Shown here one piece after another: positions 45,395 through 45,961 of a DNA stretch of 64,000 nt. This DNA is from Kordiimonas laminariae. Its GTDB lineage: Bacteria; Pseudomonadota; Alphaproteobacteria; Sphingomonadales; Kordiimonadaceae. The first letter of the stretch is position 1; every line of letters begins with the position of its first letter. The notes under the pieces were generated by a model. It saw only the letters and a program-made list of their open reading frames with translations, had not been told where the DNA came from and made no database searches. The position numbers were made by a program, and so were the translations under genes. The stretch is taken from the NCBI RefSeq assembly GCF_023008165.1, contig NZ_JAKQZA010000002.1, positions 372,001 through 436,000 on the forward strand, read 5' to 3'.

Positions 45395-45604
45395 CTATCC
45401 TCTTGTATACTCGGGCTGCTGTTTTTCAGAGAGCGCCGCAAGCCCGGCCATCAGGCCACCAGTTCCCATGGCCGCCCGGTAGCGGGCTGAGATATCAGCG
45501 ACCATACCGCCAAAATCTGCAGCCAGCTTGGGGGAGCGCACACCATTCTCGCCAAAAAATGGGTGCCTAGGGGAAAACTGATTTTCAAAAACTTGCGCGT
45601 TCAT
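45395..45604 (-). CDS. Small protein of unknown function behind an attenuator
   Basis: 69 aa, no membrane segment; N-terminal polar/aromatic part (FSPRHPFFGENGVRSPK) and a small-residue helix (MGTGGLMAGLAAL) near the C-terminus. Not recognised. A GAGAAG site precedes the ATG. Its reality is supported by its surroundings: a sigma-70-type promoter, a leader ORF and a terminator/antiterminator upstream, and a 12-bp stem just downstream, all on the same strand. Confidence 0.5.
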   Translation of the reverse strand: MNAQVFENQFSPRHPFFGENGVRSPKLAADFGGMVADISARYRAAMGTGGLMAGLAALSEKQQPEYTRG

Positions 45605-45694
45605 TTTGCTTCTCGCTTCTTTTGCAGGGTTCCTATTCCTGCGGTCATTAATTCTGGTTGCGTTAGAGGTTAATTTCTGGGCTCAGGTAACAAA

Positions 45695-45729
45695 AAACCC
45701 TCTGGGACTTATCTGGTCCGAGAGGGTTT
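45695..45729 (-). terminator. Attenuator-type terminator upstream of the 69-aa ORF
   Basis: AAACCCTCTGGGAC and GTCCGAGAGGGTTT form a 14-bp stem with one G-G mismatch and a 7-base loop; on the minus strand a TTTTTT run follows. The promoter-proximal arm can instead pair with GTCCGAGGAGGG (45775-45786 on the minus strand; 11 bp, one bulged G), which would prevent termination. Confidence 0.75.
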
Positions 45730-45765
45730 CAATTCATTTCAGCTATTTTAACTTTTCACCAAGTT

Positions 45766-45906
45766 TTAGCTGTTCCCTCCTCGGACACACGTAATGACTA
45801 GTGCTGAGCGCATAAAGGCCTGCGCGCACTTTGTCAGTTGTGGTTTATATGTCCAAGTATGGGTCATTAATTCAAATCCGTTTACGGCATCTTTAGCCCG
45901 CACCAT
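45766..45906 (-). CDS. 46-codon leader ORF
   Basis: ATG at 45906 (minus) with AAAGGAA 5-8 bases upstream; TAA at 45766-45768. The peptide begins MVRAKDAVNGFELMTHTW and ends VITCVRGGNS. It shows no run of one amino acid. Its last codons contain the antiterminator arm, so a ribosome at the stop would mask that arm and favour the downstream terminator. It could be a regulatory leader peptide or a genuine small protein. Confidence 0.5.
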   Translation of the reverse strand: MVRAKDAVNGFELMTHTWTYKPQLTKCAQAFMRSALVITCVRGGNS

Positions 45907-45931
45907 GCGAGTTCCTTTGCCGAATGATTGC

Positions 45932-45961
45932 TGTATAGGCTGAAGCTGATCCAGCTGTCAA
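45932..45961 (-). promoter_or_regulatory. Sigma-70-type promoter of the leader/69-aa unit
   Basis: On the minus strand TTGACA (45956-45961), an 18-bp spacer and TATACA (45932-45937) give a start near 45925, about 20 bases before the leader ORF. The remainder of the gap 45962-46147 holds AAACTTT-cat-AAAGTTT (45973-45989 region), an alternating GC/CG stretch near 46034-46067 and no gene that I can support. Confidence 0.6.

Follow-up and report, generated by a model that had tools for sequence, protein, structure and literature searches.

A likely ribosome-mediated attenuator with a conserved leader ORF ahead of a 162-aa gene of Kordiimonas

Introduction

The locus described here raises a simple question: what is the role of a short open reading frame, placed between a promoter and a transcription terminator, whose last codons can pair with the first arm of that terminator, and which downstream gene would such an arrangement control? 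The locus lies in a stretch of 64,000 nucleotides from Kordiimonas laminariae (G000:C20:372001-436000, genome of 3.65 Mb), which we call the window; all coordinates are positions in it. An earlier note on this DNA had proposed translation-coupled attenuation of a 69-aa gene. The logic of that proposal stands, with a conserved ORF, a terminator and a covarying antiterminator arm, but the start codon of the leader, the target gene and the number of pairing segments had to be revised. We consider it likely that a ribosome-mediated transcription attenuator is located ahead of a 162-aa gene, i.e. the leader ORF and the conserved RNA switch probably act so that this gene is turned on when protein synthesis is slow. 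In general terms, this is a known kind of switch that is attached to a new kind of gene.

Promoter and leader ORF

The elements follow each other on the minus strand in the order promoter, leader, terminator, 69-aa ORF, NADAR gene and 162-aa gene. The predicted promoter, TTGACA-N18-TATACA, is present as the earlier note described it, on the minus strand at 45961-45932 (-35 element at 45961-45956, -10 element at 45937-45932), and a TTGACA is found 77-107 nt 5' of the leader start in 18/18 genomes. A simple consensus scan missed both the promoter and the terminator, since TATACA breaks the rule that asks for T at position 6 and the terminator stem has a mismatch. Upstream of the locus there is a chemotaxis-receptor gene with a strong terminator-like hairpin on its 3' side (46182-46147), and because of this hairpin readthrough from that gene is unlikely.

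A leader ORF of 46 codons, as originally proposed, does exist at 45906-45766 (minus strand), but its start is not conserved: the frame is closed by an in-frame stop at most 30 nt 5' of an inner ATG in 7 of the 18 genomes. Comparison of the leaders places the conserved start at this inner ATG, at 45867, which gives a putative coding region of 33 codons plus stop (MTHTWTYKPQLTKCAQAFMRSALVITCVRGGNS, 45867-45766, minus strand; 17 peptides aligned). In the near-twin G013, as in the window, the frame from the 46-codon start is open and its ribosome site looks the better one, so this start may also be used.

A short conserved ORF between promoter and terminator is present in every one of the 18 genomes that hold the 162-aa gene, so that the leader ORF proved conserved when this was checked. 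The predicted peptides are 30-37 aa long across the genomes and diverge strongly, the identity to the peptide of the window being 25-55% for the 17 aligned leaders, in which Met1 and Trp5 are the only invariant residues. Each leader contains exactly one Trp and no run of codons for one amino acid, in agreement with the earlier note, which had seen no such run in the peptide of the window.

Linkage to the 162-aa gene

A first DNA search of 59 genomes matched 11, nearly all of them Kordiimonas, where the promoter, the middle part and the terminator each matched separately. A sequence-only leader model, built from 8 leaders, found one copy each in 17 of the 19 Kordiimonas genomes. The 18th leader (G011) was recognised by eye upstream of its 162-aa gene, and in the 19th genome (G002, 76% complete) neither leader nor 162-aa gene was found. 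Across the 296 genomes of the order the model returned the 17 known leaders and two weak partial matches, in G204 and G152 (E 0.004 and 0.01, respectively).

The conserved downstream partner of the leader is the 162-aa gene, an immunity-like candidate (44701-44213, minus strand). The leader lies upstream of it on the same strand in 18/18 Kordiimonas genomes that hold the gene, at a distance of 212-1332 nt between terminator and gene (17 genomes measured), and the 162-aa protein is highly conserved, with 56-67% identity to that of the window. In five genomes (G001, G005, G007, G011 and G012) the gap is just 212-291 nt and contains no convincing ORF. Because the leader is linked to the 162-aa gene throughout, the short gaps hold no convincing ORF and the place of the 69-aa ORF evolves fast, we conclude that the switch goes with the 162-aa gene, which replaces the 69-aa gene, the target originally proposed, as the genus-wide target.

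The 69-aa ORF itself (45604-45395, minus strand) has no match in Pfam or NCBIfam. It was considered as the target and set aside: a protein search of the genome contigs gave 112 pattern matches, none of which was confirmed as a relative. Between the window's genome and G013 the 69-aa ORF differs at 6 nt and 3 aa; for the 162-aa gene the figures are 17 nt and 1 aa, for the NADAR gene 13 nt and 1 aa. In 12 of 17 genomes the ORFs at this place were translated (G013 apart), and 11 of them end, as judged by eye, in a C-terminal AR[HYQ] motif like that of the 69-aa ORF; the N-termini vary by clade.

The NADAR gene (151 aa, 45185-44730, minus strand) is clearly assigned by PF08719 (116.4 bits, cut-off 35.1) and TIGR02464 (104.8, cut-off 73.7), and it lies between the leader and the 162-aa gene in 5 of 18 genomes (G000, G013, G008, G009 and G004). 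It also matches the PADLOC model PDC-M42C (E 7e-12), and the NCBIfam anti-phage NADAR model scores below its cut-off. Members of the NADAR class remove ADP-ribose from guanosine in nucleic acids. In vitro, NADAR enzymes are described to reverse guanosine ADP-ribosylation on RNA (PMC11833690). This activity would suit a repair or immunity role in the five genomes that have the gene. The genes downstream of the leader are thus the NADAR gene and the unassigned 162-aa gene, and there is no amino-acid biosynthesis operon among them.

Pairing segments and covariation

Four pairing segments were found (1:2, 2:3 and 3:4, all on the minus strand), as in trp-type attenuators. The three segments of the earlier note were therefore incomplete, the first one, TTGGACATAT, which is the partner of the antiterminator arm, having been missed. 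Segment 1 (ACTTGGACATATA, 45846-45858) extends over leader codons 4-8 and has segment 2 as its partner. Segment 2 (GTGTGTCCGAGGAGGGA, 45774-45790) is the antiterminator arm and lies in the last leader codons. Pairing and the consensus fold define segment 3 (CCCTCTCGGAC, 45716-45726) as the 5' arm of the terminator and segment 4 (GTCCCAGAGGG followed by T6, 45692-45708) as its 3' arm and U-run. The consensus fold contains in addition a hairpin within the leader ORF (45805-45828) with both-side changes.

The pairing between the last leader codons and the first terminator arm, already pointed out in the earlier note, was recovered as GTCCGAGGAGGG at the leader end with CCCTCTCGGAC (-21.0 kcal/mol, one bulge). 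As for the terminator, the U-run (T6) ending at 45692 is as described, but the predicted stem consists of 6+4 bp with one C.C mismatch instead of a clean 14 bp. The 256-nt leader folds at z = -4.0 (0/200 shuffles as low). For the 1:2 and 2:3 duplexes of the window, comparison with dinucleotide shuffles gave p = 0.002 and 0/500, respectively. Segments 1, 2, 3 and 4 are recognisable in each leader, segment 1 around codons 4-8 and segment 2 in the last codons. When the end of the ORF was shuffled with its dinucleotides kept, p was <= 0.05 for 1:2 in 13/17 genomes (not in G001, G004, G012 and G014) and for 2:3 in 12/17 (not in G004, G009, G010, G015 and G016). No Rfam family reached its gathering score in the window or in the loci of five relatives; the best bacterial leader was His_leader, with 17.7 bits as opposed to a gathering score of 49.

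The pairing segments covary, and this holds for the terminator, the antiterminator, the 1:2 helix and the hairpin within the ORF alike. In the fold composed of 1:2, the hairpin and 3:4, 93.0% of the cells are paired on 17 rows and 8 of 23 pairs are changed on both sides, as compared to 2.7 in shuffles (0/500 reach 8); sliding the fold by 1-3 columns leaves at most 2 such changes. For the antiterminator 2:3 the corresponding values are 86.0% paired and 5 of 9 pairs changed on both sides, versus 2.2 in shuffles (8/500 reach 5), and at most 3 upon sliding. The mutually exclusive antiterminator and terminator of the original proposal are thus borne out, as the arm in the last ORF codons and the terminator 3' arm compete for the terminator 5' arm and the antiterminator pairing covaries. 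Unconstrained RNAalifold predicted the hairpin and the terminator, and it did not predict the long-range 1:2 helix.

The clearest coupled change is that of the window's own lineage, where columns 90/160/178 carry A/T/A as against G/C/G in all 16 other rows, so that 2:3 and 3:4 are both maintained. Another one, which involves columns 86, 164 and 174, is common to G001 and G012. When the two-sided changes are placed on a tree of the 162-aa gene, most of them arose once, within one lineage, so counts over sequences overstate their independence.

Another line of evidence comes from the reading frame. In 4 of 17 genomes (G004, G007, G011 and G012) segment 2 is in another frame and still matches segment 1, the segment 2 cores for this comparison having been chosen with the help of the pairing analysis; coding for the peptide alone is therefore not a sufficient explanation. 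A swap test of the segments gave p values of 0/20,000 for 1:2, 0.0003 for 2:3 and 0.00005 for 3:4. The control pairs gave p = 0.78 (segments 1 and 3) and p = 0.0026 (segments 2 and 4), and since the latter pair is not expected to interact, relatedness of the genomes inflates this test.

Modelled effect of the ribosome and possible signals

The effect of ribosome position was modelled by equilibrium folding, with an assumed footprint that reaches 14 nt upstream and 16 nt downstream from the first P-site base. Without a ribosome, the 2:3 fraction of the nascent RNA before segment 4 is at least 0.5 in 14/17 genomes. With a ribosome at the leader stop this fraction is at most 0.05 in 10/17 and reduced in the other 7, as would be expected if such a ribosome masks the antiterminator arm, which the earlier note had suggested. 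The leader stop is located well downstream of segment 2 in approximately 7 genomes, and this fits the smaller reduction there. In most genomes the outcome with a ribosome at Trp5 or at the start is nearly that obtained with no ribosome. In the full-length RNA without a ribosome, the terminator wins in 15/17 genomes, the exceptions being G014 and G018. In view of this outcome and of the small effect of a ribosome at Trp5, the switch would have to be kinetic; and as the antiterminator is lost or weakened in the model when a ribosome occupies the stop, readthrough is expected to be favoured if the leader is translated slowly or not at all.

The mechanism that we propose is the following. Transcription would begin upstream of the leader ORF of 30-37 codons, and segment 2 of the RNA could pair either with segment 1, in the early codons around Trp5, or with segment 3, which could alternatively pair with segment 4. 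With quick translation of the leader, a ribosome at the stop would cover segment 2, the 3:4 terminator would form and the transcript would end at about 45692. Ribosomes that are slowed or held in the first codons, or that arrive late, would allow 2:3 to form during the passage of RNA polymerase, and transcription would continue into the downstream genes, most notably the 162-aa gene. We infer translation of the leader and termination in vivo, as well as the signal, which may be a general slowing of translation or scarce charged tRNA-Trp.

The second of these signals would make the system a Trp-specific attenuator, in which low levels of charged tRNA-Trp stall the ribosome at the single invariant Trp5 codon and free segment 2. 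In favour of it, Trp5 is the sole invariant residue besides Met1 in the 17 leaders, it is the one Trp of each leader, its codon lies within segment 1, and TGG is kept in G015 even where the partner base no longer pairs. However, there is one such codon only, and according to theory a single regulatory codon results in weak, hyperbolic control (PMC1183508). The base on either side of the codon (columns 12 and 16) never varies, which points to a constraint on the RNA as well, no search identified the controlled gene as a tryptophan gene, and the trpE gene of the window's genome has, by eye, no leader in approximately 400 nt upstream. The folding model, which in most genomes responds little to a ribosome at Trp5, also speaks against this reading. 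We thus regard Trp-specific control as possible though rather unlikely, and charged tRNA-Trp is kept as a candidate signal because the invariant codon lies in segment 1.

One might also suppose that the product is mainly a terminated small RNA, or a small-protein gene, of about 240 nt and that readthrough is incidental. The terminator is indeed highly conserved in sequence and structure, and there is one copy per genome. This is improbable, however, in view of the strict linkage to the 162-aa gene (18/18), of an antiterminator arm that covaries against the terminator, and of a peptide just 25-55% identical to that of the window which follows the RNA pairing. An ordinary terminator with chance complementarities and no regulation would explain why a simple scan found neither promoter nor terminator at the locus and why 1:2 or 2:3 is weak in a few genomes, but the covariation with its controls, the conservation across leaders down to 25% identity and the co-occurrence with the 162-aa gene make it very improbable.

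The 162-aa protein family

What the likely attenuator would control is a protein with few recognisable relatives. The family has no Pfam match at a useful score (16 members), no NCBIfam or PADLOC match (two members), and no PDB match by sequence. Its profile matches 19/296 genomes of the order, 1/385 of the class sample and 4/398 of the phylum sample. The AlphaFold2 model is confident (pLDDT 86, pTM 0.81). Foldseek returned no PDB entry at an E value of 0.001 or better, and the best rows in VIA-align were NFACT-type domains tied with the immunity protein PIM7 (8owu_E, Z 6.3), where a Z below 8 may reflect a mere common arrangement. A literature search for PIM7 gave no match.

Two confident relatives occur outside the genus, in G023 (same family) and in G909 (same phylum). 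In G023 (locus L083) the distant relative begins some 42 nt past a fragment whose C-terminal end is of the PT-HINT type (E 6e-6; at 26.9 bits slightly short of the Pfam cut-off, 27.7); the 1.6 kb inspected there contains no such leader. The G909 relative is located on a 4.2-kb contig that also carries, 1.9 kb downstream and on the same strand, an RHS-repeat ORF (E 1e-39); the genome is marked as 8% contaminated. Because both confident outside relatives lie near HINT/RHS polymorphic-toxin genes, the 162-aa family is probably immunity-like in origin. In the flanks listed, no toxin gene was seen next to the 162-aa gene of Kordiimonas. A plasmid collection contained no DNA match and none for the G023 protein; one weak match was found there, in Paraburkholderia (E 2e-3), in a sequence without annotated genes that was viewed as ORFs only.

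We speculate that the system might serve self-protection by sensing damage: a toxin, incoming or internal, or another insult would slow translation, the terminator would not form, and the orphan immunity-like protein, in some species together with the NADAR enzyme, would be made. We regard this as doubtful. If true, it would mean that an immunity gene is induced by the effect of a toxin instead of sitting beside the toxin gene.

Comparison with known systems

It is instructive to compare the Kordiimonas leader with known attenuators. The trp and his leaders of enterobacteria have four segments that pair as 1:2, 2:3 and 3:4. The Kordiimonas leader is similar in as much as it has four segments, a leader ORF over segment 1 and a terminator with a U-run. 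As far as the enterobacterial leaders have been considered here, the differences are that the Kordiimonas leader has one Trp and no run of regulatory codons, that its ORF extends through segment 2, and that no amino-acid biosynthesis gene lies downstream.

A further parallel is the bmrB leader of B. subtilis bmrCD, where ribosome-mediated attenuation without an amino-acid run senses slowed translation (PMC4191407). It belongs to another phylum and controls a drug-efflux gene, and its effect was measured (PMC4191407), whereas that in Kordiimonas is deduced from sequence. The kinetic reading, in which quick translation terminates and slow or missing translation reads through, follows the logic of bmrB (PMC4191407) and partly that of toiL (PMC12121999).

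Among the matches listed in the literature on leader peptides with immunity or toxin-antitoxin genes, the nearest was toiL, a uORF that precedes the topAI-yjhQ toxin-antitoxin operon of E. coli (PMC12121999). Like the Kordiimonas leader, toiL is a short uORF without an amino-acid run; ribosome stalls in it, including those at the start codon, rearrange the leader RNA and switch on conflict-type genes (PMC12121999). The toiL uORF acts via the ribosome-binding site and Rho termination (PMC12121999), in contrast to the predicted intrinsic terminator and four-segment antiterminator of Kordiimonas, and the gene controlled there is unrelated to the 162-aa gene.

The 162-aa protein may be akin to the immunity proteins of RHS/HINT polymorphic toxins, as its two confident outside relatives lie near a HINT or RHS gene and its fold has a weak likeness to PIM7. 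It differs in that the Kordiimonas flanks listed showed no toxin gene next to it. No paper joining Kordiimonas with attenuation or leader peptides was among the matches listed, and none on Kordiimonas and NADAR was found in the literature search, which in neither case proves absence from print; one paper mentions both Kordiimonas and small RNA.

If the proposed attenuator is real, ribosome-mediated attenuation would extend from amino-acid and drug-resistance genes to a genus-wide immunity-like gene, with translation speed as the cue, and a protein family without Pfam, NCBIfam or PADLOC match would gain a first functional handle. Given the alignment and the three-way coupled changes, the switch lends itself to direct study with a reporter.

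Surroundings of the locus

Two minor features of the surrounding DNA should be mentioned. An alternating purine-pyrimidine tract (GCGCGCGCATGC..., 46067-46031) is located 5' of the promoter, and a similar tract is found 5' of the leader of G004 (L008). Between the 69-aa ORF and the NADAR gene there is a 12-bp perfect inverted repeat, noticed by eye (GTGGTGAGCAGA / TCTGCTCACCAC, 45374-45363 / 45334-45323, minus strand), and just three T follow this repeat (45374-45323).
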